NCBI GenBank assembly: GCA_021789555.1
Contig: JAJYJK010000004.1
Span: 53,813-117,812, forward strand
Source of the DNA: Nitrospirota bacterium
GTDB taxonomy: Bacteria; Nitrospirota; Thermodesulfovibrionia; Thermodesulfovibrionales; JdFR-88
DNA: 64,000 nucleotides
Reading direction: 5' to 3'
Made by a program: the position numbers and the translations under genes. The notes beneath the pieces were generated by a model. That model was given only the letters and a program-made list of their open reading frames with translations, had not been told where the DNA came from and searched no databases. Positions 20,496 to 62,428 of the stretch are shown piece after piece; positions within the stretch are counted from its first letter, which is position 1; every line of letters begins with the position of its first letter.

Positions 20496-21628
20496 CCTTT
20501 ACCGGAAGTGGGCGGCAGGTCGGAGCCGTGGATTTGCGAATGGCAGTCGGTGCACCTCGTATAAGTGGCCCGGGTGTTGAGGGCGTTTATCAGATGCCCT
20601 TCATGGCACTGGAGACAGAGGAAGGGCTGTCTCAGTTTCAAGAGGTCATCGTTTGGCGAGCCGTGCTGGTTGTGGCAGACAAGGCAGTTTTCCGTATTTT
20701 CCGCGTGCTCGTAAATGAAAGGGCCCTCCTTGTCGGCGTGGCACTGGGTGCAGGTGGCCTTGATGGTGGGCTTCCGCAAAAGCTTCGGGTTCCCCCCGTG
20801 AGGGTCGTGGCAGTCGGTGCAGAATATCTTGCCCTCGGGAACCGGATGATGGCTTATCTGGTTGAATTCGCTCTTTATGTCCTGATGGCACCTGAAACAC
20901 ATCGACGCCGTGTCCCTGGGGTTTACGATGAGGTCCGGCCCGTGGTGGATATTGTGGCAGTCCTCGCAGTCCACGCCGTTTAAGGCGTGGGGGCTCGTGT
21001 TCCAGGCGTGAAGGTTGAAAGTGGCGTTTCCGGTATGGCATTTAAGGCATATGAGGGATTTCGCGGTCGGCGGCAGGCCCTTTATGTCGATGAACGTCTT
21101 ATAGTCGCAGGAGAGGGTCTTTCCCTCCTTCCGCGCCTCTTTCACCTTCCGCCGCGTAAGCCCCATTATGGCCAGGCTGCCAGGCCCGTGGCAGGACTCG
21201 CAGTCCACAATCGGAAGACCGGATTTGGGCGAAAGCTGGGCGCCCATCGTGCTTGCCTCAAAATCCCTCTTTATCTGGTCATGGTAATGGCAGGACCTCA
21301 GACAATTGGCATTGCCCACGTAATCGGCATCGAACCTGCCCGCAAGCATCTTTTCATATTCTTTTATGGGTATTAAGGGTTTTGAGGTCTTCAGGGTCTC
21401 GCAGCCCGCAGGCAGGAACAAGGCCGTCAAAATCAAAAAGGCAAGGAGCGGCAGATACCTCGAAAAGGCCGGCGAGAAGGCATTGTCCGTTTTTTTGAAG
21501 ACAACACGCCCGCTCTCCGTCGAGAGATTCCATCCGGATGGATTTTCACTTTCAACAGAGGGAGTTTTTTTATTTTTTATTATTATTCGCCCGGTTGCCC
21601 CTTTTGAGGCAATACGCCTGCTCTGCAT
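20480..21628 (-). CDS. MtrA/DmsE-type multiheme c-type cytochrome (9 CXXCH + 1 CX3CH)
   Basis: Counted motifs: CLRSCH (CX3CH), CESCH, CLKCH, CEDCH, CFRCH, CTDCH, CTQCH, CLVCH, CLQCH, CTDCH. Confidence 0.9.
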   Translation of the reverse strand: MQSRRIASKGATGRIIIKNKKTPSVESENPSGWNLSTESGRVVFKKTDNAFSPAFSRYLPLLAFLILTALFLPAGCETLKTSKPLIPIKEYEKMLAGRFDADYVGNANCLRSCHYHDQIKRDFEASTMGAQLSPKSGLPIVDCESCHGPGSLAIMGLTRRKVKEARKEGKTLSCDYKTFIDIKGLPPTAKSLICLKCHTGNATFNLHAWNTSPHALNGVDCEDCHNIHHGPDLIVNPRDTASMCFRCHQDIKSEFNQISHHPVPEGKIFCTDCHDPHGGNPKLLRKPTIKATCTQCHADKEGPFIYEHAENTENCLVCHNQHGSPNDDLLKLRQPFLCLQCHEGHLINALNTRATYTRCTDCHSQIHGSDLPPTSGKGWFTR

Positions 21629-40540: not shown

Positions 40541-41857
40541 ATGAAGATTGCCCGCAAAACGATAGCCGGCCTGCTGCCGGCCCTTTCCCTCTGCCTCGCG
40601 GTGGCCGTCCGGCTCGCGGCGGGGCCGGACGTCGCCCTCGCCTTCCATAACGGGGGCACCGGGGACTGTGGCGACTGTCACACCACGCACAGGGCCGGGG
40701 CCATTGCCGAAAATGCCGCAACGGCGCAAGGCGTTTATATGTTGAAGGGGTCTGACGCGAGTTCGACATGCCTGAACTGCCATCAGGCGGCCGGCCTGGC
40801 GGGGCCGACCGGCCAGTATGTAAGCACCCCGGAGTCCGAGATGCCGGCCGGCGTCCCTCCAAAACAGATGACGCCCGGCGGAGATTTCGGCTGGCTCAAA
40901 AAAAATTACACCTGGAAGGCGCCCGGCTCCGGCATGCGGGCAAGCCCTGGATACATGCACGGCCACAGCATAGTCGCAGTCGATTACGGCTACAGCGCGG
41001 ACCCGGTAATCACGAGGGCCCCCGGCGGCGCGTATCCCGCCTCGGCCCTTTCATGCACCAGTTGCCATGACCCGCACGGGACCTACCGGAGGATCATAAA
41101 CGGCGCGATTGCCTCCTCGGGGGCGAAGATCTGCAATTCCGGCTCATACGACACAAGCCCAGACCCCACTGCGGACTGCCCTGTCGGGGTCTACAGGCTC
41201 CTCGGGGGCATCGGATACCAGCCCGCAAGCCTTAACGGTTACTCGTTTACCGCCGACCCTCCGGCCGCCGTCGCTCCATCGGTCTACAACAGGTCCGAGG
41301 AAACGACCGAGACCCGTGTCGCCTACGGCTCCGGGATGTCCGAATGGTGCGAAAACTGCCATTCCATAAATCCCGGCAACGGCCGGCACAGCCACCCGGC
41401 CGGCAGTCCGGCCAAGCTGGGGACCCTGGCCAAATACTACAATATGTACGTAAAGAGCGGGGATGTTACCGGCACCAGCGCCTCCTCCTATTCATCGCTT
41501 GTACCCTTCGAGGAGGGCACATCCGACTACAGGACCCTTCGGTCCCACGCCAAAAACGACGACTCCTACCTGCGGGGGCCGGACGCAAACTCCAACGTCA
41601 TGTGCCTTACCTGCCACCGGGCGCACGCATCGGGCTGGGATTTCGGCCTGCGGTTCAACACGTACGACCAGGACTTCATTACAACGGAGGCCCAGACGGG
41701 CGCCCCCCTCTGGCCGGGCACCGACACGACCCGCAACGCGCAATGGTCCATGGGGCGGACATCCGAGGAGACCAGAAGGGCCTACTACAATATCCCCGCA
41801 AGGAGGCTCTCGCCATACCAGAGGACGCTCTGCAACAAATGCCACATCCGGGACTAA
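40541..41857 (+). CDS. OmcS-like hexaheme c-type cytochrome (copy A)
   Basis: Six CXXCH (CGDCH, CLNCH, CTSCH, CENCH, CLTCH, CNKCH). Resembles Geobacter OmcS along its length (FHNGGTGDCGDCHTTH, MPAGVPPKQMTPGGDFGWLKKNYTW, APGGAYPASALSCTSCHDPHGTYRR, AVAPSVYNRSEETTETRVAYGSGMSEWCENCH, YQRTLCNKCH). Confidence 0.9.
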   Translation: MKIARKTIAGLLPALSLCLAVAVRLAAGPDVALAFHNGGTGDCGDCHTTHRAGAIAENAATAQGVYMLKGSDASSTCLNCHQAAGLAGPTGQYVSTPESEMPAGVPPKQMTPGGDFGWLKKNYTWKAPGSGMRASPGYMHGHSIVAVDYGYSADPVITRAPGGAYPASALSCTSCHDPHGTYRRIINGAIASSGAKICNSGSYDTSPDPTADCPVGVYRLLGGIGYQPASLNGYSFTADPPAAVAPSVYNRSEETTETRVAYGSGMSEWCENCHSINPGNGRHSHPAGSPAKLGTLAKYYNMYVKSGDVTGTSASSYSSLVPFEEGTSDYRTLRSHAKNDDSYLRGPDANSNVMCLTCHRAHASGWDFGLRFNTYDQDFITTEAQTGAPLWPGTDTTRNAQWSMGRTSEETRRAYYNIPARRLSPYQRTLCNKCHIRD

Positions 41858-41934
41858 CGCAGCCCCCGGAATTTGAGGTCTTTTGCCAATTACATCTTTA
41901 CATTTTCAAATGCTGCATTTTAAAATATAGCCGC

Positions 41935-43347
41935 ATGAAAGAGACAGTGGTTGCCTTGGCCCTTATGGCGATGGTCATCGCCGGTATTGACGGTAAGGGG
42001 TGGGCGTTCCACGACGGCGGCGTCGGCGCATGCGACGGATGCCACACGATGCACAACTCCATCGGCGGCCAGCCGGTGCAGCTCAAAAACGGGGCCGTAC
42101 CCTCCGCCACCGTGGGCCAGGCGTCCAACGCATACCTGATGAAGGGCACGGACCCCAGCTCCACCTGCCTTAATTGCCACCAGGAGACGGGAAACGCGGC
42201 CGCCACCGGCCAGTTCATAAGCACCTCCCCGGCGGACATGCCCGCCGGCTATCCGCCCATAGAGCTCACCCCCGGAGGGGATTTCGGATGGCTCCAAAAA
42301 ACATATACATGGGTGTACAGCGGCACGCAGTACACCGACCCGGGCCAAAACCACGGGCATAACATCGTCGCGGCCGATTTCAATTACGTGAAGGACTCCA
42401 CAATCATAACGGCCCCGGGCGGCACATATCCCGCCTCCGCCCTCTCCTGCATAAGCTGCCACGACCCCCACGGAAAATACAGGAGAAACTCTGGCGGAAG
42501 CATCACAAAGGGCGGGAGCCCCATAATCGGGTCCGGCTCCTACAATACAAGCCCGACCCCCGCGGCGGGCCAGGCAGTAGGCGTTTACAGGCTCCTGGGA
42601 GGCGTTGGATACCAGCCGGGTTATCTGCTGGGCAGTTATGCCTTTAGCTACGCCCCGCCGCCCGCCGTCGCCCCATCGGTCTATAACCAGTCGGAGAGCA
42701 CCTATCCGGTCCGCGTGGCCTACGGCAGCGACGGCTCCAGCAACGGGATGTCCTTCTGGTGCAGAAACTGCCATCCGAATATACACACCTCCAGCGGCCC
42801 GTCGGCGCCCTTGAACGTCTATAATCAAACGTACAGTTTCCCGCAAACCCACCCGATTGAGAGCTATTTGAGCATGGGAACAAACAACAATTACAACGCG
42901 TATATAGAATCGGGGGTCTACACGGGCACTCAGAGCACATCCTACTGGTCCATCGTGCCCTATGAGGAAAACAACTTGAATTACTCGACCCTTGCATCCC
43001 ACGCAAACAATAACGGCAGCTATCTTACGGGACCGTCAAGCAGCGACTACGTCTCCTGCATGACCTGCCACAGGGCGCACGCCACGGGATGGGACTACAT
43101 GCTCCGCTTCAACTATTTGGGCATACCGGACGGCAACCACGGCTGGACCCAGATCATAGACGACAACAGCGGCGGAGCGGTTTGGCCGGACCCGGTCCTC
43201 GACCCTTATAAGGCCATGGGACGCACCACAACGGAAACGCAGCAGGCCTATTACGGCAGACCGGCAACCACCTACGCGGCCGTCCAGTACGTCCTGTGCA
43301 ATAAATGCCATTACGCCGGCATGATGGGCGGGGGCAGCGGCCGGTAA
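41935..43347 (+). CDS. OmcS-like hexaheme c-type cytochrome (copy B)
   Basis: ATG at 41935 with signal peptide MKETVVALALMAMVIAGIDGKGWAFHDGG; six CXXCH (CDGCH, CLNCH, CISCH, CRNCH, CMTCH, CNKCH); paralog of copy A. Confidence 0.9.
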   Translation: MKETVVALALMAMVIAGIDGKGWAFHDGGVGACDGCHTMHNSIGGQPVQLKNGAVPSATVGQASNAYLMKGTDPSSTCLNCHQETGNAAATGQFISTSPADMPAGYPPIELTPGGDFGWLQKTYTWVYSGTQYTDPGQNHGHNIVAADFNYVKDSTIITAPGGTYPASALSCISCHDPHGKYRRNSGGSITKGGSPIIGSGSYNTSPTPAAGQAVGVYRLLGGVGYQPGYLLGSYAFSYAPPPAVAPSVYNQSESTYPVRVAYGSDGSSNGMSFWCRNCHPNIHTSSGPSAPLNVYNQTYSFPQTHPIESYLSMGTNNNYNAYIESGVYTGTQSTSYWSIVPYEENNLNYSTLASHANNNGSYLTGPSSSDYVSCMTCHRAHATGWDYMLRFNYLGIPDGNHGWTQIIDDNSGGAVWPDPVLDPYKAMGRTTTETQQAYYGRPATTYAAVQYVLCNKCHYAGMMGGGSGR

Positions 43348-44042
43348 CTCCTCAGCAGGTCCAGGTTTTCCCTTGCGGTTTTTTCCAAAGCCGGGCCGGA
43401 AATATCCTTCAGATACGGGAAAATGCCTATTAGCGGGACCCCCGACAGCTCCCTTATCACCTCGGGGTTTGTGGGCCATGAAGGGTCCTGATCTCCGTCC
43501 GCAGGGCCCAGGCGGTTTATTACCACCCCGGCCACCTGGACGCCGGCGTCAAGCGCGCACCTCACCGTAAGGAGCGTGTGGTTTATCGTCCCCAGGCCGG
43601 GCCTCGCCACAACGACGAGCGGAAGCCCCAGTTCCCCCGCCAGATCAAGGACGTAAAAATCCCGCCTGATGGGCACAAGCAGGCCGCCTACCCCCTCGAC
43701 AACGACCGCGTTGTATCTTTTTGCCAGCCCGCCGAAAATCTTTTTTATCCGCTCGGGCTCGATCCGGACCCCTTCCCTCTCCGCTGCGACCATCGGGGCA
43801 AGCGGGGCCTCCAGGGCGTATGGGGTCACAACAGAGATGTCTTCTTCCATCCCCGCCATCGTCCTCAGAAGAGCCCCGTCCGCGGGCACGAGGACATCGC
43901 CCTTCCTCATGCAGCCCGACTCAATTGGCTTCATCGCGCAGACGGAAAGCCCGGCCCCTTTTAAAAGGCGCACAAGCGCGGCCGAGATGACCGTCTTTCC
44001 GACGCCGGTGTCCGTCCCCGTCACAAAAAAACCCTTCGCCAT
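43311..44042 (-). CDS. bioD: Dethiobiotin synthetase (ATG at 44042)
   Basis: GFFVTGTDTGVGKTVISAALVRLLK, VVEGVGGLLVPI. Confidence 0.94.
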   Translation of the reverse strand: MAKGFFVTGTDTGVGKTVISAALVRLLKGAGLSVCAMKPIESGCMRKGDVLVPADGALLRTMAGMEEDISVVTPYALEAPLAPMVAAEREGVRIEPERIKKIFGGLAKRYNAVVVEGVGGLLVPIRRDFYVLDLAGELGLPLVVVARPGLGTINHTLLTVRCALDAGVQVAGVVINRLGPADGDQDPSWPTNPEVIRELSGVPLIGIFPYLKDISGPALEKTARENLDLLRSYRPLPPPIMPA

Positions 44043-44050
44043 TTTTTCAG

Positions 44051-44097
44051 ATCCCCTCACCCTCCGCTTCGCTCCTCCCTCTCCCATTGGGAGAGGG
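44051..44097. repeat. DUF559-repeat-like palindrome (CCCTCTCCCATTGGGAGAGGG plus CCTCACCCT arm)
   Basis: Reverse complement ccctctcccaatgggagaggg-aggagcgaagcgg-agggtgagggga matches the 1615-1651 repeat with a 13-nt insertion. Confidence 0.7.
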
Positions 44098-46211: not shown

Positions 46212-47462
46212 TTATCGGCCCTGGCCTGCCGTCAAAAAGCGTTTCATTATCGCGTGGGCGGGGAGTCTCATTATCCCCTCCAGCCTCAGTATCGATTCGT
46301 CATAGCGGGCCGCAGCGCCCAGGCCCGGACGGCCCCCCGCTTCGCTGTCGTATATCACAAAAGGCACGGGGTCCCTGGAATGGGTCCTGAGCTCTATCGG
46401 CGTGGCGTGGTCCGGCATCAAAAGCACCCTGAAGCGGCCGAACTCCGGCATACCGCGCATGACGCCGCCCACCACGAGGGCGTCGAAATCCTCGATTGCC
46501 TTTATCTTGTTTTCGATGCTCCCCTCGTGCGAGGCCTCATCCGGGGCCTCCACATGGACATAGACAATATCCGCATCCTCGAGGGCGCGCAGGGCGTACT
46601 CCGCCTTCCCCGCATAGTTCGTATCGAGGTAGCCCGTCGCGCCGGGGACGTCTATCACCCGGAGCCCGGCCGATATCGCAAGCCCCTTTGCAAGGTCGAC
46701 CGCCGAGACCATCGCGCCCTTGATTCCATAGAGCCTGCTGAAATCTGGTATCCGCGGTTTCCCCCCCTGCCCCCACAGCCAGATGCTGTTGGCGGGCCTC
46801 TTGCCCGCGGCCAGACGCTGCCTGTTTACTGAGTGCCGTTCGAGCAAGTCCTCGCTGGCGCGCATCAGGCCCCTTATGATGTCCTCGCCCGCGCCGTGCG
46901 GCAGGTATTCGCTTATCTCCCTGCCGAGGATATCGTGCGGGGGCGTGCACTCGAGCGGACGTTTATTGCCGTTTTCACAGGAAGCCGCCTCGCCCATCCA
47001 GAGCATCAGGTTGCGATAGCTCACACCCGGATAGAACCTCACCGTCTCCGAGCCCAGCTCGCGGTTAATATCCCCGATGAGGACGCGCCCCTCCTCCGAG
47101 GTGAGCTGTCCGGCGCTGTGGTCTTCCATGTACGCCTTTGTCTTGTCCCTGTTGAATTTCAGCGTGACCAGGTTGCACCTGAAGGCCACGTCCGCGTCCC
47201 GGAGCGGTATGCCCATGCTGGCCGCCTCAAGCGGCGCCCTGCCGGTGTAGTATCTCTCCGGGTCGTAGCCCAGGATGCCAAGGTTGGCGACATCCGAGCC
47301 GCCCGGCAGCCCCTCCGGAAGGGTCACGGCCCCGCCGGCCATGCCTTCTTTGGCGAGCCTGTCCATGTTGGGCTTGAATGCGGCCTCAAGCGGGGTCTTG
47401 CCGTGGAGTTTTTCGAGCGGCCGGTCCGCCATGCCGTCTCCAATGAGGATGACGTATTTCAA
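46212..47462 (-). CDS. aPGM-type cofactor-independent phosphoglycerate mutase family; possible homoserine-kinase analog
   Basis: [40 protein letters not shown]; between lysC and thrC. Confidence 0.88.
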
Positions 47463-48523
47463 AGTATCCTCTCTATTATCTTCCGTACGACGCCTATTTC
47501 GTTTTCGACCTTCGCAAGCTCGCCCGGCAATGCCTTGAAGACCGAATCCGGGTCCTTGAGCCCGTGCCCCGTGAGGGTGCAGACCACGCGGTCGCCGGGG
47601 CTGAAGAAACCCTCCCTGCCCAGTTTAAGCACGCCCGCGATGCTGGCCGCGCTGGCCGGCTCGCAAAAAATCCCCTCGGCGCCGGCCACAAGGCGGTAGG
47701 CCTCCAGTATCTCCTCATCCGTCACCGCCGCTATCCTGCCGCCTGACTCCGCTATGGCGTTTTCCGCCCCCTTCCAGCTTGCGGGGTTTCCGATGCGAAT
47801 GGCGGTGGCGATCGTCTCGGGGCGTTCGACCGGCCTGCCGATGACTATAGGGGCCGCTCCCGCCGCCTGGAACCCGAGCATCCGCGGAAGTCTGCCGATC
47901 CTGCCCCCCCTTTTGTATTCATTATATCCCTTCCAGTACGCCGTGATATTGCCGGCGTTGCCGACCGGCAGGGCATGGAAGGAGGGCGCGTCGCCCAGGG
48001 CGTCGGCGACTTCGAAGGCGGCCGTCTTCTGCCCCTCTATCCTGAAGGGGTTTATCGAATTGACAAGCTTTACGGGGTAGTCTTCGACGATTTTTTTCAC
48101 GAGGGCAAGCGCGCTGTCGAAATTCCCCTTGACCTGCAGGACGTGCGCCCCGTGTATTATCGCCTGGGCCAGCTTTCCGAAGGCTATCTTGCCTTCCGGT
48201 ATGAGCACTATGGCCTTCATTCCGGCCCTCGCCGCGTAAGCGGCCGCGGCGGCCGAGGTATTGCCGGTGGAGGCGCATATCACCGCCCTGCCGCCCTCCT
48301 CCAGGGCCTTCGGGATGGCCACGGCCATCCCCCTGTCCTTGAACGAGCCGGTGGGGTTGGCGCCGTCGAACTTCAGATAGAGCTCTATGGGCAGAGCGAA
48401 CCTCTCCGGAAGGTGGACCGCCTTTACAAGCGGCGTGCCGCCCTCCAGCAGCGTAACGGACGGAGTTTTTTCGCTTACGGGAAGGTATTCCCCGTATTGG
48501 CGTACAATCCCTTTCCAGGCCAT
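47459..48523 (-). CDS. thrC: Threonine synthase (short paralog)
   Basis: [56 protein letters not shown]. Confidence 0.92.
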
Positions 48524-49074: not shown

Positions 49075-50325
49075 TTACATCACCTCCCCTTTGTGAGAAA
49101 TGCCTTTAAGCACATCCTCGAAGGATGCCAGATTCGGTTTTATGCGGTGCACCGTGGCCGTATGCCCGGCGAGCGCCTCCTGGGTCTTCAGCCCGTTGCC
49201 CGTTATGCAGACCACGGTGCTCGAGTCCCTGTCTATCCTGCCGTCCTCCACGAGCTTCTTCGTGGCGGCAAGCGTGACCCCGCCCGCCGTCTCGGCAAAG
49301 ACGCCCTCCGTCGCGGCCAGCAGTTTTATCGCCCCAATCAGCTCGATGTCGGATACGTCCTCGCCGCCGCCGCCGGTCTCCCGCACCACCGCCCCGGCGT
49401 AATAGCCGTCCGCAGGGTTGCCGATGGCAAGGGATTTCGCCACCGTATCGGGCTTCACCGGACGGATGACCTCGGTGCCCTTCTTTATGGCGGCAACGAT
49501 GGGCGAGCACCCGGTGGCCTGGGCCGCGAAGACCTTCGTCGGGAGGGCGTCGATGAGCCCTATCATCTTCGCCTCCTTGAAACTCTTCCATATCTTCGTA
49601 AGCAGAGAGCCGCTGGCGCAGGGAATCACCACGTTGTCCGGGGCCTTCCAGCCGAGCTGCTCCAGGACCTCGAAGCCGAGCGTCTTTGAGCCTTCGGCGT
49701 AGTAGGGCCTTATGTTTATGTTGACGAAGGCCCATTTGTACTTGTTGGCTATCTCGCTGCAGAGCCGGTTGACGTCGTCGTAATTGCCGTCGACGGCGAT
49801 CAGGTTGGGCGAATACACGATGGAGGCCGTTATCTTGCTTTGCTCAAGCGACGCCGGTATGAAGACGAACCGTTTCAGGCCGGAGCGCGCCCCCAGGGCC
49901 GATACCGAGTGGGCCAGGTTGCCCGTCGAGGCGCAGGCCACGGTGTCGAACCCGAACTCCAGGGCCTTGGTCAGCGCCACCGAGACCACCCTGTCCTTGA
50001 ACGAGAGCGTCGGGTGCATCACCGTATCGTCTTTTATATAGAGCTCCCTCACACCGAGGGCCTTTGCCAGGTTGTCCGCCTTCAGCAGGGGCGTGAACCC
50101 GGAGTTGAACCCCACCCGGGGCTCTCCGTCGATGGGCAGCAGCTCCCTGTAGCGCCAGAGGTTTTTCGGCCTCTCCTCTATGCGCCGCCTGTCCAGGACA
50201 CGTCCGATGCCCTCATAGTCATAGACGACCTCCAGGGGGCCGAAGCAAAATTCGCATACGTAAATAGGCTCCACGGGGTATTCCCGCGAGCACTCCCGGC
50301 ATCTGAGGGCCTTCACGTAACCCAT
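49075..50325 (-). CDS. thrC: Threonine synthase-like PLP enzyme with N-terminal zinc ribbon (ATG at 50325)
   Basis: LRCRECSREYPVEPIYVCEFCFGPLEVVYDY, MHPTLSFKDRVVSVALTKALEFG, ACASTGNLAHSV; strong SD aaaggaggtgcgcg before ATG. Confidence 0.92.
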   Translation of the reverse strand: MGYVKALRCRECSREYPVEPIYVCEFCFGPLEVVYDYEGIGRVLDRRRIEERPKNLWRYRELLPIDGEPRVGFNSGFTPLLKADNLAKALGVRELYIKDDTVMHPTLSFKDRVVSVALTKALEFGFDTVACASTGNLAHSVSALGARSGLKRFVFIPASLEQSKITASIVYSPNLIAVDGNYDDVNRLCSEIANKYKWAFVNINIRPYYAEGSKTLGFEVLEQLGWKAPDNVVIPCASGSLLTKIWKSFKEAKMIGLIDALPTKVFAAQATGCSPIVAAIKKGTEVIRPVKPDTVAKSLAIGNPADGYYAGAVVRETGGGGEDVSDIELIGAIKLLAATEGVFAETAGGVTLAATKKLVEDGRIDRDSSTVVCITGNGLKTQEALAGHTATVHRIKPNLASFEDVLKGISHKGEVM

Positions 50326-50464
50326 CGCGCACCTCCTTTCAGGCAAGATATCTCGATATTTTACTCCAACCATGCCGATTTTTAAAGTATTGCCGGGCTT
50401 TTTTTTCGCCGCCGGGTAAAAGCGCCTCATTTGACAAAAGCCCCCACGCCCCGGATAATAAATA

Positions 50465-51758: not shown

Positions 51759-53402
51759 TTACTTGGCCCGCCCGGCGTCTTGTTTTTTCAGTTCTTCTTC
51801 CGCCATGCCCAGGTTGCGGCCCGCCTGGGCGTATCCGGGGTATATCCGGAGCGCGGTCTGGAATTCACCGATCGCCTCCCGGTAACGGCCCATCTTCCCG
51901 TACACCGCGCCCAGGTTGTTATGCGCCACCGCACTGTCGGGTTTCAGGTCCACCGCGATTGTGAGCTCCCGCACCGCGTCATTCAGCCGTCCAAGCTGCG
52001 TAAACGCCATGCCCAGGTCATCATGCGCCTCTGAATAATAGGGGTTGATGCTTATGGCGGTCTCGAACTCCCCTATCGCGCGCGGCAACTTCCCGATCTT
52101 CAGGTAGGCCGTGCCGAGGTTATTATAGGCGTCCACGTTTCCGGGGTCCGCCCGGACCATGCTCTGGTAGAGGTCAAGATTGTCCCACCAGACAAAATTC
52201 CTCTCGAAGGTCCTCACCTCGAAGGAAACGGCTATAAGTATTATGAGGGCGACCCCGGCCGGCGGGACCTTCCTGTATGCCTGCCGGAGCGCGTAGCCGG
52301 CCATGAGGGCAAATCCCGCCGCCGGAAGATAATAGAACCTCTCGGCCACCGGGGCGCTCGGTATCGGGATGATGTCCGACACCGGCAGGACCATCCACAA
52401 AAACCAGAGGGCCCCCGCCCGCAGCGGAGCGGGTGTCTTTTTCCTCACCGCAAGGAAGATGAGCATGGCCAGCCATAAAACCGAGAGCAGGGATTTCAGC
52501 CAGCTAAAGGGCGCCATCGACTGGTTTGTATAGAGGGCGTTGAGATTGAAAGGAAAGACCATGAGCCTCGCGCCCTCAAAAACCACATTCGAAATGAATA
52601 CAAGCCTGCCTGCCGAAAACCGGATGCCCTCCCCCGAGGCGTACATGCCGAGCGCCGCCCGTCTCAAGACCATATACCCCGCAGCCGCCGCGAAAAAAGC
52701 CGGCAGTGTCATCCACCATTTTTTTACAGGCCGCCATTTTTGGGCCCCCGCAAAATTTTCACCGGGCAGCAGGAGCGCCAGGCAGAGGAGGAAAAAGGGC
52801 AGCGCCACCGTCTGCTCCTTGCTCAAGAGGGAAAGAAAAAACAACCCCGCCGCGGCAAGGACAAAGACCCGCTTGGGGCCTCCTTTTTTGAGGACAAGCA
52901 GAGACCCGAAGACAAACGCCGCGTTTAACAGCGTGTTTCTCGCGGAGATAAAATCGACCGCCTCCGCGTTTACCGGGTAGAGCGCAAAGAGCAGGGCCGA
53001 TATGAAGGCAAGCGCGCCGTCCCCGAAAACCTCCGCCACAAGCAGGTAGAAGACAAGGACGCAGACGGCGTGCAGGAGCAGGTTTTCAAGATGATACCAG
53101 AACGGGTTTTGCCCCCAGAGATGATAGTCCATCATGAAGGTAAGAATGCTCAGCGGCCTGTAATACGGGGTCTTGACGGCCTGGGCATTGTCGGCCGTTT
53201 TAAGGATGGCGAGCGCGTTGCCCGGGTCGCTGAAGAACTGGCCCTTCTCCACTATCAGGTAATGGTCGTCCCATACGAAACCGGCGGACAGGCTGTTCCA
53301 GTACGCCGCGACAACGGCGAGGAGCAGCAAAAGGACGGCGAGCCTCCGGTTTAAGGCCAGGCCAAACAGCCGCACATCCCCATTGCCGCTTTTATTTTCC
53401 AT
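51759..53402 (-). CDS. TMTC-like GT-C membrane protein with C-terminal TPRs (paralog 1, ~3 TPR)
   Basis: NSLSAGFVWDDHYLIV, YRPLSILTFMMDYHLWGQNPFWYHLENLLLHA, then TPRs. Confidence 0.85.
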   Translation of the reverse strand: MENKSGNGDVRLFGLALNRRLAVLLLLLAVVAAYWNSLSAGFVWDDHYLIVEKGQFFSDPGNALAILKTADNAQAVKTPYYRPLSILTFMMDYHLWGQNPFWYHLENLLLHAVCVLVFYLLVAEVFGDGALAFISALLFALYPVNAEAVDFISARNTLLNAAFVFGSLLVLKKGGPKRVFVLAAAGLFFLSLLSKEQTVALPFFLLCLALLLPGENFAGAQKWRPVKKWWMTLPAFFAAAAGYMVLRRAALGMYASGEGIRFSAGRLVFISNVVFEGARLMVFPFNLNALYTNQSMAPFSWLKSLLSVLWLAMLIFLAVRKKTPAPLRAGALWFLWMVLPVSDIIPIPSAPVAERFYYLPAAGFALMAGYALRQAYRKVPPAGVALIILIAVSFEVRTFERNFVWWDNLDLYQSMVRADPGNVDAYNNLGTAYLKIGKLPRAIGEFETAISINPYYSEAHDDLGMAFTQLGRLNDAVRELTIAVDLKPDSAVAHNNLGAVYGKMGRYREAIGEFQTALRIYPGYAQAGRNLGMAEEELKKQDAGRAK

Positions 53403-55215
53403 GGTCCGTTTCTTTCGGGATATTTTCGGGGTTTGAGATCAGGGCCAGATATCTGGCGGCTGTCTGATTGGCGGGGTCGAGGCGAAGGACGCCCAGGAAC
53501 TCCTCTCTCGCCTCCTCAAGATTGCCCAGCCTCGCGCTGATTACTCCTGCATTGATGCGCGCCTCAATGAAACCGGGGTCCAGCCGGAAGGCCATTTTAA
53601 ATTCGTGGAGCGCCCCTTGCGGATTTCCGGAAGCCGCATAGGCCTGGCCAAGCCAGGCGTGAACGTCCGGACTGTCCGGCGTCAGCTTTCCGGATGTCTC
53701 AAGCTCCCGCACCGCATCCCGCAGACGGCCTTCATGCAGATATATTATCCCGAGGTTTTCGTGGGCATCGGCATATCCGGGGCTGATGCCGATGGCCATT
53801 TGGATCTCCCTCATGGCGTCTTCCATACGCCCCAGTTTCCGGTAGACGACGCCCAGGTTAAAATGGGCCCTGGCAAAACCAGGCTGCAGGACAACCGCTG
53901 CCTGAAAGGCCTTCGCCGCGTCATCGAGGCTGCCTTGTTTTTCCAGGACATAGCCGAGATTATTATAAGCGATCTGGTTTTTCGGGTCCGAGCGGAGCAC
54001 GCTTTGATAGAGGCCCAAATCGCTCCTCCAGACCCGGTTTCTCTCGAATGTCCTTACACCCAGGACAAGGACAAGCGCCATGGCCGCGACCACTCCGGAG
54101 CCGGCCCGCTTTTTATTCAAAACCGCCAAAAGATAGCCGAGGACAGCGACAAAACCGAAAAGAAACGTGTATTGATACCTTTCAGCCACCGGGGTGCTGG
54201 GTATCCTGACAATGTTCGATACGGGCAGTAGCCCCCACAAAATCCACTGCGCTCCGGCGCGCACCGGCTCCGGGGTCCTTTTAACAACGGCCAGCAAGAC
54301 AAGAGACAAAACGCCCAGGATTGAAAATAAGGCCTTTGGCGCGGTAAAAGGCAGGGTCCCCGTCAAATATATGGCGTTAAGCTTGAAGGGGTACAGCATG
54401 AGCCGGAATTCTTCAAAAAGGGAAGACGAAACAAGCTTCAGATTATCGATTGAAAAGACAATGCCCTGTCTCGAGGTGAAAGCGCCGATTACCATATATC
54501 TCAAGACAAAATACAGGGCCGTCGTCATGAAAAAAACGGCAAGCGCGGCTTTCCCCGTTTCATGCGTCTTTTCCCTTGTGGTCAGAGTGTAGGAGAGGAG
54601 GAAAAAGGGCAGGACTATGGCGGGCTCCTTGCTCATAAGGGCGAGAAAGTAAGATATAACGGACATGCCAGTCCATTTAAACCCTCTTTCCCTCAGGAAT
54701 AAAAGTGAGGAGATCAAAAACAACGCGCATAAAAGGCTGTTTCTGGCCGAGATGAAATCGACCGCCTCCGCGTTTACGGGGTATACGGCAAACAGCAAGG
54801 CCGCGAAAAAGGCAAGCGCGCCGTCCTTGAATTCCGCGAGCAAAAGCAGATAGAAAAGCGAGACGACGCACGCGTGCAGGAGCACAGCTTCCAGGTGGTA
54901 TCCGAAAGGTCTCGGTCCCCACAAATAGTGGTCGAGCAAGTATGACATCGCACCTAAAGGCCGGTAATAGGGGTTTGAATTGCCGATTTCGGCCCCGGTG
55001 TTATCGGGCGAGGTCAAAATGGAGGGGATGTTCCTCAAATCGGAGAAAAACCCCTGCCTGGAAACTACAAGGTAATGGTCATCAAAGACGAAACCGGAGT
55101 GGAGACTGTTGCCGTACGTGGCGGCCACCACAATGGCCAATAGCGCTATGGAAAGCCTCTTGTTTGCAAACAGGCCCCTGGCTCCCGGGGCCTTGCCCGG
55201 AGACTCTATAGACAT
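53392..55215 (-). CDS. TMTC-like GT-C membrane protein with TPRs (paralog 2, ~5 TPR)
   Basis: NSLHSGFVFDDHYLVV, YRPLGAMSYLLDHYLWGPRPFGYHLEAVLLHA. Confidence 0.85.
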   Translation of the reverse strand: MSIESPGKAPGARGLFANKRLSIALLAIVVAATYGNSLHSGFVFDDHYLVVSRQGFFSDLRNIPSILTSPDNTGAEIGNSNPYYRPLGAMSYLLDHYLWGPRPFGYHLEAVLLHACVVSLFYLLLLAEFKDGALAFFAALLFAVYPVNAEAVDFISARNSLLCALFLISSLLFLRERGFKWTGMSVISYFLALMSKEPAIVLPFFLLSYTLTTREKTHETGKAALAVFFMTTALYFVLRYMVIGAFTSRQGIVFSIDNLKLVSSSLFEEFRLMLYPFKLNAIYLTGTLPFTAPKALFSILGVLSLVLLAVVKRTPEPVRAGAQWILWGLLPVSNIVRIPSTPVAERYQYTFLFGFVAVLGYLLAVLNKKRAGSGVVAAMALVLVLGVRTFERNRVWRSDLGLYQSVLRSDPKNQIAYNNLGYVLEKQGSLDDAAKAFQAAVVLQPGFARAHFNLGVVYRKLGRMEDAMREIQMAIGISPGYADAHENLGIIYLHEGRLRDAVRELETSGKLTPDSPDVHAWLGQAYAASGNPQGALHEFKMAFRLDPGFIEARINAGVISARLGNLEEAREEFLGVLRLDPANQTAARYLALISNPENIPKETDHGK

Positions 55216-55239
55216 GGCGCTCCCAAAAAAATATATCCC

Positions 55240-57030
55240 CTAATTGCCCCCGGGGGTGGGACTTCCGCCCGCCGGTTTTACCAGCGGCAGGTCCCTGGCC
55301 GCAATGGCGTTTCCGGGGTCGATGGACAAAACGGTCTCGAACTCCCGCCTGGCGTCCGCGTAGCGGCCCTGCCTGAAGTAGATCACCCCCAGGTCGTTAT
55401 GGGCAGTGACGTTGCCGGGGTCCAGGGCGAGGACTTTTACAAATTCCCGCGATGCCTCTTCAGTGAGGCCCTGCCGCAAACGGGTTATCGCCAGGTTCAG
55501 GTGCGCGTCGGACCTCTGCGGGTTTAATTCCACCGCCCCGCGGAATTCGCGGGCGGCGTCCTCAAGCCTGTCCAGCCCGGCCAGCGCCACCCCCAGGTGT
55601 ATGCGGGCCGTGTAGAAATCCGAATCGAACGAGACGGCGGCCCGGAACTCCCGCACCGCCCCTTCGAGGTCGCCCGTCTTCATATATGCAAGCCCAAGGC
55701 CGTCGCTGGCCTCCGGATAATCGGGCTGACGCGCGAGGGCCGCCTGGAACTGCCCGGCCGACTCGTCAAACCTGCCTGCGTCATATAAAGAGCGCGCCAG
55801 GTAGTAATGCGCGGTGGGGTTTCCGGGGTCCGACCGGACCATGCTCCGATAGATGCTGAGATTACCGCGCCAGTCAAAATTCCTCTGGAATGTCCTAGCC
55901 CCCAGGATGATGACAAGCAGGGCCAGCAACAACATCGCAGGCAGCGCCCTTCTCCTGTACAGCGCGGCAATTGCGTAGCCAAGGATGAGGACAAACCCAA
56001 ACAGTATCGTGTACTGATATCTTTCCGCCACCGGGGCGCTCGGTATCATGACTATGTTGGAGACGGGCAGCAGCCCCCACACTATCCACTGGGCCCCGGC
56101 GCGCACCGGTCCGCTCGTCCCCCGTCCGATAGAAAGATAAAGAAGCGCCGCGAGGCCGGAGACGGCAATCACCGCCCTCAAGGGAGTGAAGAACACATCG
56201 AGCATCGAATAATAGGCGTTCAGGCTGAACGGCCAGAGCATCATGTGGAAATTCTCGAAGAGGACCGCCGACATGAATTTCAGCCTCTCGACCGAAAACT
56301 CAAGGCTCTGGTTGGACGCAAAAACGCCGAGTACCGCCTGCCGGATAAGAAAATAAACGGCGGTTATCACGAAAAAACCGGCGAACGTCTTCCACCCTAC
56401 CCTGAATCTTTTTTCATCCCTTGCGAAAAGGGTGAAGGTCAGGAGAAAAAACGGCTCCACCACGGCCGGCTCCTTGCTGAGGAGGGCCAGGAAATATGCG
56501 GCAAATGAAAGCGCGGTCCATTTCGCCCCCTTCCTTGAAAGCGCAAGCAGCGAGGCCATAAGAAACAGGGCGCAAAGGAGGGTGTTTCTTGCCGAGATGA
56601 AATTCACGGCCTCCGCGCAGACCGGATAGACCGCAAACAGCAGGGCGGAAAAAAAGGCCATCAGTTCGTCCTCGAAGACGCGGGCCACAAGAAGGTAAAA
56701 AAACACTACCACGAGCGCGTGCAGCAGGACGTCTTCCAGGTGGTACCATAGGGGGTTTAGGCCCCAGAGGTAATGGTCCAGCATGTAGGTAAGCGTGTTT
56801 AACGGGCGGTAGTAAGGGGTCGCCTCATTATTGGTGGTGTCCCGCTGGGCAAACGCCGAAAACGTGTTTTCCGGATGGCTGAAAAAAGCGCTCTTGTTTA
56901 TTACCGTGTCCCGGTCATCGAGGACAAAGCCGGAAATCAGGCTGTTGGAATAGACGATGCCGACGGCAATCAGCAGGGCCGCGATGGCGATCTTTTTGTT
57001 CAGTATGGCGCTTTTTATCCAATCGATCAT
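55240..57030 (-). CDS. TMTC-like GT-C membrane protein with TPRs (paralog 3, ~5 TPR)
   Basis: NSLISGFVLDDRDTVI, YRPLNTLTYMLDHYLWGLNPLWYHLEDVLLHA. Confidence 0.85.
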   Translation of the reverse strand: MIDWIKSAILNKKIAIAALLIAVGIVYSNSLISGFVLDDRDTVINKSAFFSHPENTFSAFAQRDTTNNEATPYYRPLNTLTYMLDHYLWGLNPLWYHLEDVLLHALVVVFFYLLVARVFEDELMAFFSALLFAVYPVCAEAVNFISARNTLLCALFLMASLLALSRKGAKWTALSFAAYFLALLSKEPAVVEPFFLLTFTLFARDEKRFRVGWKTFAGFFVITAVYFLIRQAVLGVFASNQSLEFSVERLKFMSAVLFENFHMMLWPFSLNAYYSMLDVFFTPLRAVIAVSGLAALLYLSIGRGTSGPVRAGAQWIVWGLLPVSNIVMIPSAPVAERYQYTILFGFVLILGYAIAALYRRRALPAMLLLALLVIILGARTFQRNFDWRGNLSIYRSMVRSDPGNPTAHYYLARSLYDAGRFDESAGQFQAALARQPDYPEASDGLGLAYMKTGDLEGAVREFRAAVSFDSDFYTARIHLGVALAGLDRLEDAAREFRGAVELNPQRSDAHLNLAITRLRQGLTEEASREFVKVLALDPGNVTAHNDLGVIYFRQGRYADARREFETVLSIDPGNAIAARDLPLVKPAGGSPTPGGN

Positions 57031-57050
57031 ATTGATCCTGCCGTTTGGTC

Positions 57051-58790
57051 CTACCGGCCTTGCAGCATCTGTTCGGCCCGCTCCAGGTTCCTCATCGCAA
57101 GCCCAAACCCTGGCCCGGCGGCCAGGACGGCCTTTTGAAACTCCTTCACCGCGTCTTTGATGTCCCCCTCGGTCTCATAGGCCAGCCCGAGGTTATTGAG
57201 CGCCACGGCGTTGCCGGGATTCAGATTGACCGCTGTCTGAAACTCCGCCATCGCATCCTTCATTCGTCCCATATTTGCGTAAACCCTGCCGATGTCGTCA
57301 TGCGCCTCGGAAGACCCCGAGGGGTCCAACTTTATCGCGGAGCCGAATTCGGCGAGGGCCCATTCGTACATCCCGTCCTTCGCATATGCCACGCCCAGGT
57401 TCACGTGTATCCTGGCAAGGCCCGGTGCGAGGACGGCCGCCGTCCGGAGCTGCCCTATCGCCGCCGGCAGATTATTGGCGTCCATATAGGCCGAGCCCAG
57501 GTTATAGTGCGCCTTGGCGTTCGAGGGGTCCGAGCGGACCATGCTGCTATACAGGCTTACATTATCGCTCCAGATAAAATTCCTCTCGAAAGTCCTTGCC
57601 CCTAGGACAAGCGCCAGGGCCGCGAAGGCGGCCAGGGCGGCGCAGGGCCTTTTTTTGCGCCAGGCCGCAAGCCCCCAGGCAATCATCAACACGAACCCGG
57701 CGGTAACCGGGTAGAGGTACCTGTCCGCAACGGGAGAGCTTGGTATCATTACTATGCCGGATATCGGCGCAAGCCCCCACAAGACCCAGAGGGCGCCCGC
57801 CCTGACCGGCTCCGGCCCCTTCCTCCGGAGGGCGAGATAAACAAGCAGGGCAAGACCGCAGAGCGCGGCGGCGGCCTTCAAAATGCCGAAGGGAACCGCC
57901 TCCGAGGTATAGTCCGCATTGAGCTTAAACGGCAGGACGATGAGCTTGAAATCCTCAAAGAGGACCGCGCAGACATGCCTGAATATGTCCGCGGAAAGGG
58001 ATATCCCCCCCTCCGAGACAAACGCCCCCAGCGCGGCATGCCTCAGCAGGAAATAGCCGCCCCCGGCAAGGAGAAACCCGGCAAGCACCTTCCAGTCCGT
58101 CTTCAGCGCTTTGTCCTTCGTCAGCAAGCCAAAAGAGAGCAGGAAAAACGGCAGCGCCACCGCCTGCTCCTTGCTCAGGAAGGCAAGGAAAAAGGCGGCG
58201 ACCGAAATTATCGCCCCCGCCAGCTTTACCCCGCCTTTTTCGGATGACCCGCCTTTTTCGGATGAGCGCGCGAGGAAATAAAGCGACACCAGAACAAGGA
58301 GGAAACAAAGGAGGATGTTCCTCGCCGATATCAGGTCGACCGGCTCGGCATTAAGGGGGTAGACCGCCCATATCGCCGCCGCGAAAAACGCGAGCATCTC
58401 TTCCCCAAAAACAAGCCGGATGAGCAGATAGAGGACAAGGACCGCCGCGGCATGCAGCAGCAGGTTTTCAAGATGGTACCAAAACGGGTTTAATCCCCAC
58501 AGGCGGGCGTCAAGCATATAGGTGAGCGTGTTCAAGGGCCGGTAATAGGGGAAAGTCTCGGCGAAGGGATTTTGAAGCCTGTAGTACGCGCTCGATGCGT
58601 CAAGGGGCTGATCGGGCATTACAAAAATTTTCAGGGCGTTTGCCGGGTTTTGAAAAAACGCGGCCTTCTGCACGATGAGGTATTTATCGTCCCAGACGAA
58701 GCCGGCAAAGAGCCCCCTGCCGTAGACGGCCGCCACCAGCAGCAAAAGGAACACAATTTTTTTAATGTTTGCGCTCCTATCCGCCGCCAT
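57051..58790 (-). CDS. TMTC-like GT-C membrane protein with TPRs (paralog 4, ~4 TPR)
   Basis: RGLFAGFVWDDKYLIV, YRPLNTLTYMLDARLWGLNPFWYHLENLLLHA. Confidence 0.85.
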   Translation of the reverse strand: MAADRSANIKKIVFLLLLVAAVYGRGLFAGFVWDDKYLIVQKAAFFQNPANALKIFVMPDQPLDASSAYYRLQNPFAETFPYYRPLNTLTYMLDARLWGLNPFWYHLENLLLHAAAVLVLYLLIRLVFGEEMLAFFAAAIWAVYPLNAEPVDLISARNILLCFLLVLVSLYFLARSSEKGGSSEKGGVKLAGAIISVAAFFLAFLSKEQAVALPFFLLSFGLLTKDKALKTDWKVLAGFLLAGGGYFLLRHAALGAFVSEGGISLSADIFRHVCAVLFEDFKLIVLPFKLNADYTSEAVPFGILKAAAALCGLALLVYLALRRKGPEPVRAGALWVLWGLAPISGIVMIPSSPVADRYLYPVTAGFVLMIAWGLAAWRKKRPCAALAAFAALALVLGARTFERNFIWSDNVSLYSSMVRSDPSNAKAHYNLGSAYMDANNLPAAIGQLRTAAVLAPGLARIHVNLGVAYAKDGMYEWALAEFGSAIKLDPSGSSEAHDDIGRVYANMGRMKDAMAEFQTAVNLNPGNAVALNNLGLAYETEGDIKDAVKEFQKAVLAAGPGFGLAMRNLERAEQMLQGR

Positions 58791-60693
58791 TTTCAGCCCC
58801 CATGGAGTCTAAATGGTTGCGGGCGGGGGCGTTCCCGGGGGCCAGCCTCAGGACTTCCCGGAATTCACGGGCGGCATCCTGCATGCGGCCTTCTTTCTCA
58901 TAACCGATGCCCAGGAAAAGATGCGCCTCCACCAGACCCGGGTCCTGCCTTTCGGCGCGTCCGAACTCCACCATCGCCTCATCCAGGCGGCCCATCTCCG
59001 CATAGGCCACCCCAAGGTTCATTCGCGCGTAATTGTAAAGCGGGTCCAGTTTCAGGGCCGCCTCGAACTCTCGTGAGGCCCCATTCAGGTCGCCGCGCCC
59101 CGCATATATGAGCCCCAGGTTTACATAGGCCTTCGTGTAGTTGGGGTTTAGCTTTATTACCGTTTTAAATTCCTTCTCGGCTTCTTCCATCATGTTTCTT
59201 TTTACATAGGCGATGCCCAGGTTCAAATGGGCCTCAGCCAGTTCCGGGTCCACTCTCACGGCAGTTAGAAATTCTTTCAAGGCGTCATCGGAGCGCCCTT
59301 CATCTCCATAGACCATCCCGAGGTTGACATGCGCCCCCGCATAGTCGGGGTCAAGCGCGATGGCAGTCCTGCATTGCACGGCCGCTTCTTCAAACTGCTT
59401 GTTTTTTATGTAAGCCTGGCCCAGGTAGTCATGGGCCGCGGCGCTCGCCGGGTCCGACCGTACCATGCTCGAACAGAGGCTCATCGTGTCGCGCCAGACG
59501 AAATTCCGCTCGAAAGTCCTCGCCCCGAGGGCAAGCGAAAGCGCGGCCATTACGGTTATTCCCGCGGCGGCCTTCCTGCGGTGCAGCTTCACGATCAGAT
59601 AACCGAGGATGAGGACGAAACCCGGAATGATCGTGTACTGGTATCTCTCGGCCACCGGCGCGCTCGGTATCTTGACGATATTGGAGACCGGCAAAAGCCC
59701 CCAGAAAACCCACTGCGCCCCGGCGCGCACCGGCGCCGGAATAAATTTCTTCCCGGCAAGCGAAAGATAAAGCAGGAGTGAAAGGCCCGAAACGGCGCCC
59801 GCCGCCTTCATCAGGCCAAAAGACATCTCCCCGTCCGTATAGAGCGCGTTTAGCCTGAACGGAAACAGCATCAGCCTGAAATTCTCGAAATATACGGCCG
59901 CAATGAATTTTAATCTCGAAAGAGAAAACTCCATGCCCGCCTTGGAAGTAAACGCGCCAAGGACAATATGCCTCAGAAGAAAATAGACGCCGGTGATTGC
60001 GAAGAGGCCGATCAGGACGCTTTTATTTACCCGGAATTTCTCTTCCTCCGTTGTGAGCGTAAAGGAAAGCAGGAACAAGGGCGCCACCACCGCCGGCTCC
60101 TTGCTCATGAGGGCAAGGAAATAGGACAAAAGCGCCAGCAGGGACCATTTAAGCCCGCCTTTTTTGAGAAAAAGCCCGCTTTTTCCAAGGAAAAACAAAC
60201 TGGCAAACAGAAAAACGGCGCACAGCAGCGTGTTTCTTGCCGAGACGAAGTCCACCGCCTCCGCGTTGACCGGGTACAGGGCAAACAGAAGGGCCGAGAA
60301 AAAGGCCAGCCGCTTGTCTTCAAAAGCCATTGCCAGGAGAAGGTAAAAAAGCACGACGGCCGATGCGTGCAGCAGCAGGTTCTCCAGATGATACCAGAAC
60401 GGGTCGAGGCCCCAGAGATGGGAATCGAGCACATAGGTGAGCGTGTTCAAGGGCCGGTAATACGGGGTGGCCTCATTATGGCGGAAATCCGTATCGGGGG
60501 AGGCCAGCAGCACCAGGGCGTTTCGGGGCTGGCTGAAAAACGCCTGTTTTTGTACTATCAGGGTGTCGTCGTCCCAGACGAAGCCCGACCGAAGGCTGTT
60601 GCCGTAAACGGCCAGCACGACAAGAAAAAGGACCGCAACCGCTAAGCCGCTGGCGGATTTCCCGTTGGCCGGGCTGTTTGCCGGGTTTTTCAT
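58777..60693 (-). CDS. TMTC-like GT-C membrane protein with TPRs (paralog 5, ~6 TPR)
   Basis: NSLRSGFVWDDDTLIV, YRPLNTLTYVLDSHLWGLDPFWYHLENLLLHA. Confidence 0.85.
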   Translation of the reverse strand: MKNPANSPANGKSASGLAVAVLFLVVLAVYGNSLRSGFVWDDDTLIVQKQAFFSQPRNALVLLASPDTDFRHNEATPYYRPLNTLTYVLDSHLWGLDPFWYHLENLLLHASAVVLFYLLLAMAFEDKRLAFFSALLFALYPVNAEAVDFVSARNTLLCAVFLFASLFFLGKSGLFLKKGGLKWSLLALLSYFLALMSKEPAVVAPLFLLSFTLTTEEEKFRVNKSVLIGLFAITGVYFLLRHIVLGAFTSKAGMEFSLSRLKFIAAVYFENFRLMLFPFRLNALYTDGEMSFGLMKAAGAVSGLSLLLYLSLAGKKFIPAPVRAGAQWVFWGLLPVSNIVKIPSAPVAERYQYTIIPGFVLILGYLIVKLHRRKAAAGITVMAALSLALGARTFERNFVWRDTMSLCSSMVRSDPASAAAHDYLGQAYIKNKQFEEAAVQCRTAIALDPDYAGAHVNLGMVYGDEGRSDDALKEFLTAVRVDPELAEAHLNLGIAYVKRNMMEEAEKEFKTVIKLNPNYTKAYVNLGLIYAGRGDLNGASREFEAALKLDPLYNYARMNLGVAYAEMGRLDEAMVEFGRAERQDPGLVEAHLFLGIGYEKEGRMQDAAREFREVLRLAPGNAPARNHLDSMGAENGGG

Positions 60694-61673
60694 TTTTTCT
60701 CCGGCCCCGGCCCGCTCTCCAGCGGCTTTTCCGCCACCACCGTTATCACTCCTCCCATCCGCAAGACGGCTTCGATGACGGATAGAAAAAACGCCGCCGG
60801 GGCAAACGCCATCGCTGAAACAATGGCGCCGTATCTTTTCCCCTCCCCCCTCAGGGTGCTGAAAAGATCTGGGCCGCTTCCGGACATGAGCGCCCCGAAA
60901 CTGAGGATCATCCCGGAGACACCGTGCTCGGCGCTGAAATGCCTAAAACCCTCGACCGCAAAGCCGCTTTGCTTCAGGGCATGGGCAAGCGGGCCGGGGC
61001 TGAAATGATATAAATGTCTTGGCAAATCCAGGTGTATCCATCGCCTGCCGAACAACTTCGCCTGAAGGCTCCCGATGTTGGGAACGGAGATGACGAGCAG
61101 CCCCCCGGGTTTCAGTATCCTCCTGACCTCCTTAAGCGTCTGCACGGGGTCCCTGACATGCTCAAGGACATGCCAGATGGTGACGACGTCGAAAAACCCA
61201 CCGGGCAGGTCCAGCTCCATCAGGTCCCCCTCATAAACGGTGAACGGCGCGTCTCCGGTTTTCTGCCGGAAAGGGGTTTGCCCCGGCAACTCCGTGCCAT
61301 AGCACTCAAAACCCCGGGATTTCAGTTCCGCGAGCATGAGCCCCCTTCCGCACCCTATGTCCAGGACCCTGGGATTTCCATCGTTTTTTTTTACGGCCCC
61401 GTCTGTTTTTCGGCGGGGACCGAAAAGCCTGTCTATCATCCGCGCCCTTCGCACCCTGAAATACTTTACAAGGGTTTCAGCGCCGTATAAAAAACGCTTC
61501 CCCCCTTCCCGCCTGTATCCCTCGTAAAAGACCGACAGGTCCCCGGGGACCGGGTCCAGGAAAACGAGGCCGCAGTCCGTGCATTTCAGGAGCCGGCGGG
61601 CGCCGTCGATTTCACGGTATTCAGTCAGGTCTTGGCTGCGGCAGACAGGGCACGGGCGAGAAGAAGGGTTCAA
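60690..61673 (-). CDS. Class I SAM-dependent methyltransferase with N-terminal Zn knuckle
   Basis: CPVCRSQDLTEY...LLKCTDCGLVFLDP, VLDIGCGRGLMLAELKSRGFECYGTE, VVTIWHVLEHVRDPVQTLKEVRRILKPGGLLVISVPN. Confidence 0.92.
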   Translation of the reverse strand: MNPSSRPCPVCRSQDLTEYREIDGARRLLKCTDCGLVFLDPVPGDLSVFYEGYRREGGKRFLYGAETLVKYFRVRRARMIDRLFGPRRKTDGAVKKNDGNPRVLDIGCGRGLMLAELKSRGFECYGTELPGQTPFRQKTGDAPFTVYEGDLMELDLPGGFFDVVTIWHVLEHVRDPVQTLKEVRRILKPGGLLVISVPNIGSLQAKLFGRRWIHLDLPRHLYHFSPGPLAHALKQSGFAVEGFRHFSAEHGVSGMILSFGALMSGSGPDLFSTLRGEGKRYGAIVSAMAFAPAAFFLSVIEAVLRMGGVITVVAEKPLESGPGPEKK

Positions 61674-62428
61674 CTCTTTTCTTCCAGAAACCGGTATTCC
61701 CTCAGTCCGAGCCTGTGAAAGATAAACCTCATGATCGTCCTTAGCACCCCGAAACCGTATCTCATGCTGGAGAGGAATCCGACCGACGAGGAGTCCACTC
61801 CGTAGTGGGTCCTGACCGGTATCTCCTCTATCCTGAAACCGAAGTGCACGAGCTGCGCGATTATCTCATTGTCGAAGACGAAGCCGTTTGAGTTGTCAAG
61901 AAAAGGCACCCGCTCAAGGACATTTCGCCCGTAGGCGCGGTAACCGGTATGATACTCGGAGAGTTTCAGCCCCATCGCGAGGTTCTCAATGAAAGTAAGG
62001 GTCTTGTTGGCTATGAATTTATAGAGCGGCATTCCTCCACGAAGGGGCTTGTGCAGCATCCTGGAGGCAAAGACGGCGTCCGTCCGCCCATCCAGGAGCG
62101 GTTTGACCAGGTCCGGGATGATGCGAGGGTCGTACTGGTAGTCCGGGTGGAGCATCACGATGATATCGGCCCCGTCTTTGAGGGCCTCAAGATAACAGGT
62201 CTTCTGGTTGCCGCCGTACCCTATGTTATATGAATGGGCGACCACCTTCAGGTTAAGGGATTTTGCGACCTCGACCGTCCCGTCGCGGCTGAAATCGTCA
62301 ACGAGCAGGATCTCATCCACCCATTCCATCGGTATGTCCATATAAGTCTTTTTAAGGGTGGCCGCCGCATTGTATGCGGGCATTACCACAACGATTTTCT
62401 TGTCTCTAAATCCCATGCCAGAAATCAA
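61670..62428 (-). CDS. Family 2 glycosyltransferase, polyprenyl-phosphate mannose/glucose synthase-like
   Basis: VVVMPAYNAAATLKKTYMDIPMEWVDEILLVDDFSRDGTVEVAKSL, VMLHPDYQYDPRIIPDLVKPLLDG. Confidence 0.9.
   Translation of the reverse strand: MISGMGFRDKKIVVVMPAYNAAATLKKTYMDIPMEWVDEILLVDDFSRDGTVEVAKSLNLKVVAHSYNIGYGGNQKTCYLEALKDGADIIVMLHPDYQYDPRIIPDLVKPLLDGRTDAVFASRMLHKPLRGGMPLYKFIANKTLTFIENLAMGLKLSEYHTGYRAYGRNVLERVPFLDNSNGFVFDNEIIAQLVHFGFRIEEIPVRTHYGVDSSSVGFLSSMRYGFGVLRTIMRFIFHRLGLREYRFLEEKS

Follow-up and report, generated by a model that had tools for sequence, protein, structure and literature searches.

Two consecutive OmcS-family hexaheme cytochrome genes

The window, the whole 64,000-nucleotide stretch of DNA analysed here, belongs to a Nitrospirota MAG of 2.85 Mb that is 98.8% complete (G000:C49:53813-117812). 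On its forward strand, two consecutive genes, here called A and B, encode proteins with six CXXCH heme motifs each. Gene A (40541-41857, +; 438 aa) begins with a signal peptide (residues 1-34, 40541-40642), whose cleavage site we infer from the sequence and the alignment with 6EF8. The mature protein is predicted to start at FHNGG, in register with residue 1 of OmcS (FHSGG). Alignment places the equivalent of OmcS His16 at His50 of A (codon 40688-40690), and Arg428 (codon 41822-41824) corresponds to OmcS Arg397. The protein ends in CNKCHIRD, so that both elements of the conserved heme-6 end, the arginine and the canonical xxD C-terminus, are present in A.

Gene B (41935-43347, +; 470 aa) carries a predicted signal peptide at residues 1-24 (41935-42006), and sequence and alignment suggest FHDGG as its mature start. 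The equivalent of His16 is His40 (codon 42052-42054), as judged by alignment. At the Arg397 position, the arginine is lost and replaced by Tyr452 (codon 43288-43290). After the heme-6 motif, the extension YAGMMGGGSGR (43312-43344) takes the place of the three-residue xxD end. B thus lacks the equivalents of Phe351, Arg397 and Asp407 and gains a tail of 11 residues. Because Arg397 and the xxD end are missing, with Y452 and CNKCHYAGMMGGGSGR instead, we did not file B as a shaft subunit. A mechanically called ORF would start gene B at 41344, but this start overlaps A in another frame and was rejected in favour of the ATG at 41935.

The tail region of B overlaps the 3' end of the convergent bioD gene (43311-44087). 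We considered whether the tail is an artefact of annotation or frameshift caused by this overlap, and rejected the idea. The orthologue in the second species (locus L013) has a tail, YAGMGGGGGSGR, without such an overlap, and non-canonical tails of 11-15 residues occur in 7/7 members of the B clade. The distinct tail pointed out in the original prediction is therefore real.

An AT-rich spacer of 77 bp (41858-41934, +) separates the two genes. It contains a promoter-like element, TTTACA-18-TAAAAT (41897-41926), recognised by its match to the consensus. In both species that have the pair, this element is kept directly before B, and the 5' half of the spacer has diverged. B may therefore have its own transcription, starting from this putative promoter.

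Fold and heme ligands of both proteins

When all PDB sequences were searched with phmmer, OmcS was the only meaningful match to either protein, covering essentially the whole mature protein in A (E 5.8e-137, 58% identity) and in B (E 3.2e-116). OmcE and OmcZ gave no sequence match to A or B in this search. The alignments behind the AlphaFold2 models excluded OmcS itself. The model of A has a pLDDT of 87.6 and superimposes on 6ef8 with TM scores of 0.92/0.91 at 2.9 Å. For B, the corresponding values are 75.0, 0.81/0.89 and 4.2 Å, and the low-confidence parts are mostly extra loops and the tail.

OmcS has 12 axial histidines, 11 from its own chain and one supplied by the neighbour at heme 5 (PMC6584659). 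In the alignment, 12/12 are kept in A and B (OmcS residues 2, 13, 16, 51, 110, 144, 147, 243, 257, 332, 335 and 404). Among 98 family members we notice exactly 12 conserved histidine columns, of which 11 are invariant in complete proteins, and His16 is lost in one subset only. That His16 is the sole axial histidine ever lost matches a need of the monomer for 11 ligands and of its neighbour for one more. We take His16 to be the ligand donated to the neighbouring subunit in 6EF8, in keeping with this conservation pattern.

Sequence, heme motifs, ligands and predicted fold together establish A and B as exported hexaheme OmcS-family cytochromes. The original prediction of a consecutive OmcS-like pair is borne out, since both ORFs lie on one strand with six CXXCH each and match OmcS over its full length. 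The motifs quoted for the pair are present with small differences (SCHDPHGTYRR in A, ELTPGGDFGW in B). A missing inter-subunit histidine had been named as a result that would speak against the prediction; His16 is kept in A and in B, and both models adopt the OmcS fold.

Neighbourhood and history of the pair

The neighbours of the pair are housekeeping genes, with yicC, a gmk-like gene and coaBC upstream, and bioD, a fabG-like SDR and a lysC-like gene downstream. Further along the window, two threonine synthase paralogues are located close together (49075-50430 and 47459-48523, both on the − strand). One of them also gives a Pfam NinF score across 25 residues; a short zinc-ribbon-like stretch probably matches there by chance.

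Eight OmcS-family matches are found in the host genome. Besides the pair in the window, these are an A paralogue on contig C104, three matches on C4 and two on C74. The closest relative of the host is the MAG WY3.bin132 of the same genus, whose A is 75% identical and where B sits between A and bioD, as in the host. Each of six genomes of the family has one A and one B, and the two are adjacent in one genus only. In four relatives outside the genus (L014-L017), A adjoins bioD and B lies elsewhere in the genome, which indicates that the tandem is a genus-level rearrangement of two co-occurring genes. A recent local duplication is rejected, because A and B are 53% identical, form separate clades across the family, and A alone adjoins bioD in those four relatives.

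A and B are old paralogues. In trees they do not group with OmcS, forming their own 15-row clade (98 SH-aLRT); in the bootstrapped 70-row tree, B is the sister of A (94/96). The deeper branches of the trees are weak. Compared with the sister species, both genes are under purifying selection (NG86 dN/dS 0.24 for A and 0.22 for B). The idea that a tandem of OmcS-like genes is unusual in itself is not supported: the omcS-omcT-GSU2501 operon is known, and such tandems recur in many relatives and in many of the loci that we fetched.

Three non-overlapping classes in the OmcS family

We classed 174 full-length family members, A and B and 172 relatives, by His16 and by the end that follows heme 6. 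Most members end three residues past the heme-6 motif, in xxD. New here is the division of these members into three non-overlapping classes: 105 are normal ('shaft' class), 36 keep His16 and have an altered tail, 33 lack His16 and have a normal tail, and none is changed at both ends. The exclusivity of the two changes gives a Fisher p of 2.4e-4, uncorrected for kinship. In the normal class, R397 is present in 98% and the xxD C-terminus in 100% of members. The altered-tail class loses D407, R397 (from 98% to 19%) and F351 (from 86% to 11%), and the His16-less class loses the N-terminal residues V6, M15 and L37. Loss of F351 and R397 is seen in three separate altered-tail lineages, and loss of V6 and L37 in two His16-less lineages. 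These residues are outside the class definition. A fourth, small altered-tail lineage (L105 71-1441, L106 91-1497, L199 207-1595) breaks the rule, keeping F351 and R397 with the tail VLDFDDxTGxLPxxY.

The main tree was built without the end regions, and the bootstrapped tree and AU tests used a 70-row subset of the 174 members. In this subset, the tests reject one common origin both of the altered-tail members (AU p 1.8e-5) and of the members without His16 (AU p 0.018). A single clade of B and the Geobacter altered-tail members is not rejected (AU p 0.10), so the independent events are fewer than the lineages. The rare classes arose at least twice each, losing opposite ends of the protein.

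The classes also occur together in genomes. A normal copy is present in 45/45 genomes that have at least two full-length copies, and all three classes are found in 22 of these 45, mostly one of each (permutation mean 9.1, with 22 reached in 0/5000 permutations; not fully phylogeny-corrected). A belongs to the normal class and B to the altered-end class, a state that is conserved across the B clade. Members of the B clade are longer (446-510 aa mature) and carry clade-specific loops, and their donor-face residues M15, H16 and L37 stay conserved.

Normal and altered-end copies occur in the window's genus and sister genus, where no His16-less copy was found; G005, a more distant genome of the family, has one. 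The 33 His16-less paralogues include L031 5785-7245 and members at L034, L052, L053 and L173-L176, many of them directly after the osc block in Geobacteraceae.

Within the window, five consecutive proteins of 550-640 aa with C-terminal TPR (51759-62428, −), one of which has a weak PMT mannosyltransferase match, are encoded beside a GT2 glycosyltransferase and a methyltransferase. In Geobacter sp. L1geo, relatives of all three kinds stand right behind the His16-less osc-cluster gene (L031 8401-13242; GT2 56% identical). We notice here a possible glycosylation module for OmcS-type proteins.

The osc-type assembly block and comparison with known systems

On contig C74, the host carries all eight genes of an osc-type block in the order found in Geobacter (L010, G000:C74 3383-15291). 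They encode a YNCE-like propeller, a 776-aa protein, a GNA1162/LpoB-like lipoprotein and a 414-aa protein, followed by a PPIC-type isomerase, a 26-heme and a 16-heme cytochrome and an NHL protein. The gene set and order are those of GSU2500-2493. The OmcS-like copies next to it here are others, from a distant clade. The A/B pair is not adjacent to it, having housekeeping neighbours in the window. Among 61 genomes from this order, 8/10 of those clearly matching the OmcS family carry the first gene of the block, against 0/51 of the others (Fisher 1.5e-8 for co-occurrence, uncorrected for kinship). Beside the block on C74, an OmcS-like ORF of 254 aa (L010 319-1083) has three CXXCH only and a normal C-terminus. 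It may reflect an internal deletion, decay or an assembly error in a repeat array; five intact copies stand together at G002:C17.

The window holds a further electron-transfer candidate. A nine-CXXCH cytochrome with DmsE/MtrA-like paired CXXCH (20480-21628, −) overlaps the start of a gene for a 667-aa secreted protein (18492-20495, −), which has a beta-barrel look, an aromatic C-terminus and no Pfam match. This pair (18492-21628) may form a porin-cytochrome conduit through the outer membrane.

OmcS itself (GSU2504; 6EF8, 6NEF) shares with A and B the six CXXCH, the 12 axial histidines including His16, the fold and the FH-GG mature N-terminus. In contrast to OmcS, A lies outside the OmcS clade at the identity given above and comes from a Nitrospirota host, A and B being known here from genes and models. 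B differs from OmcS by lacking the canonical xxD C-terminus and Arg397 and by having extra loops. G. sulfurreducens has omcS, omcT and oscC (GSU2501) at one place and omcJ at another (osc names from PMC13194489). Like A and B, the products of omcS-omcT-oscC (GSU2504-2503-2501) are consecutive divergent OmcS paralogues encoded on one strand. The adjacency of A and B arose separately, however: one genus has B placed between A and bioD, and in its relatives B is at other sites. Among the genomes that we searched, which do not include G. sulfurreducens, no 100% OmcS match was found. OmcE and OmcZ resemble the OmcS type as extracellular multiheme cytochrome filaments.

In Geobacteraceae, all three classes flank the osc block, in one of two orders: normal and then altered-end copies before the block and the His16-less copy after it, or the normal copy before it and the altered-end and then the His16-less copy after it. 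The altered-tail clade beside this block (e.g., L023 4419-5744, tail ATGTK) is probably OscC-like. Its members resemble B in that they keep H16, lose xxD, R397 and F351, and are paired with a normal copy. They differ from B by their separate place in trees, and both the tail and the loops are longer in B.

B as a candidate end piece of a predicted filament built from A

By its sequence, A has every feature of a repeating wire subunit, including His16 and the conserved C-terminal face with the equivalents of Arg397 and Asp407. A would polymerise head to tail like OmcS, each His16 completing heme 5 of the neighbour. The hemes of OmcS are stacked in the order of the sequence, with heme 6 near the subunit junction (PMC6584659). 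The C-terminus that follows heme 6 should then lie at the junction opposite the His16 end, and this heme order would put Arg397, Phe351 and Asp407 on the acceptor face. The change in B is one-sided, with the His16 side constrained and the heme-6 side released, as expected for an end subunit of a polar polymer. The loss in the His16-less class looks like the mirror image of the change in B.

Taken together, the one-sided change in B and its mirror image in the His16-less class lead us to favour, tentatively and as a somewhat less than even prospect, a division of labour in which A is the repeating wire subunit and B a specialised end piece of the filament. B would use its His16 side to attach to a polymer of A and sit at the end where no subunit adds further, either as a tip cap or as a base on the cell side. 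Export and folding of A and B would use the osc-type block on contig C74; that A and B are not beside this block speaks against this reading, as does the small altered-tail lineage that keeps F351 and R397. The original prediction left three options for the pair, namely two filament types, a heteropolymer or a cap/nucleator, and the last of these, for the second copy, gains support from the family-wide class pattern.

A different possibility is that each protein builds an OmcS-like homopolymer of its own, the one made of B using a re-worked interface and having longer loops at its surface. Several types of filament are made by Geobacter (PMC12954529), B keeps its fold and all axial ligands including His16, and the length and loops of the B clade could suit a different filament. 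However, a new self-compatible interface should change both ends, whereas only one end of B is changed and the donor face (M15, H16, L37) is conserved. A normal copy is also present in each multi-copy genome with altered-tail members, and we regard two filament types as unlikely.

About as improbable, perhaps slightly more so, is a B that does not polymerise, its tail blocking the process. Such a protein might act as a monomeric electron shuttle or pass electrons to the wire, either in the periplasm or bound to the surface; under this account, A could be polymeric or not. Of four G. sulfurreducens homologues, OmcS alone is known to form a wire (PMC12977616), and OscC/GSU2501 is given as periplasmic (PMC13194489). 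This account leaves the retention of His16 in 36/36 altered-tail members hard to place, because a monomer would not need a residue outside its own heme set. Copolymerisation of A and B in one mixed wire, alternating or random, draws on the adjacent genes, the presence of His16 in both and the one copy of each per genome in the family, but it is very unlikely, because the adjacency is confined to one genus, separate promoters are possible, and the face of B without the residues kept in the normal class predicts one-sided competence.

Returning to A as shaft and B as end piece, we speculate, still more cautiously, that nanowires of this family are a kit. A shaft would be combined with one or two polar end subunits, either His16-less or altered at the heme-6 end, which evolved repeatedly from shaft genes, and B would be an end subunit of the filament of A. 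As no His16-less copy is found in the host, any kit there is incomplete. A literature search covering few subscription papers gave nothing relevant on capping or terminal OmcS subunits and no mention of His16-less OmcS paralogues.

The functions of OmcS paralogues are stated as unknown (PMC12977616), and the physiological roles of OmcS filaments are described as disputed (PMC11077965). Our findings bear on how heme polymers start, anchor to the electron supply of the cell, stop and connect to an acceptor. If the rare classes are end pieces, electrons would enter or leave the wire through them, and the donated histidine and the C-terminal face would be control points of polymer length. If true, this would also provide a sequence rule that separates wire subunits from their partners in metagenomes.
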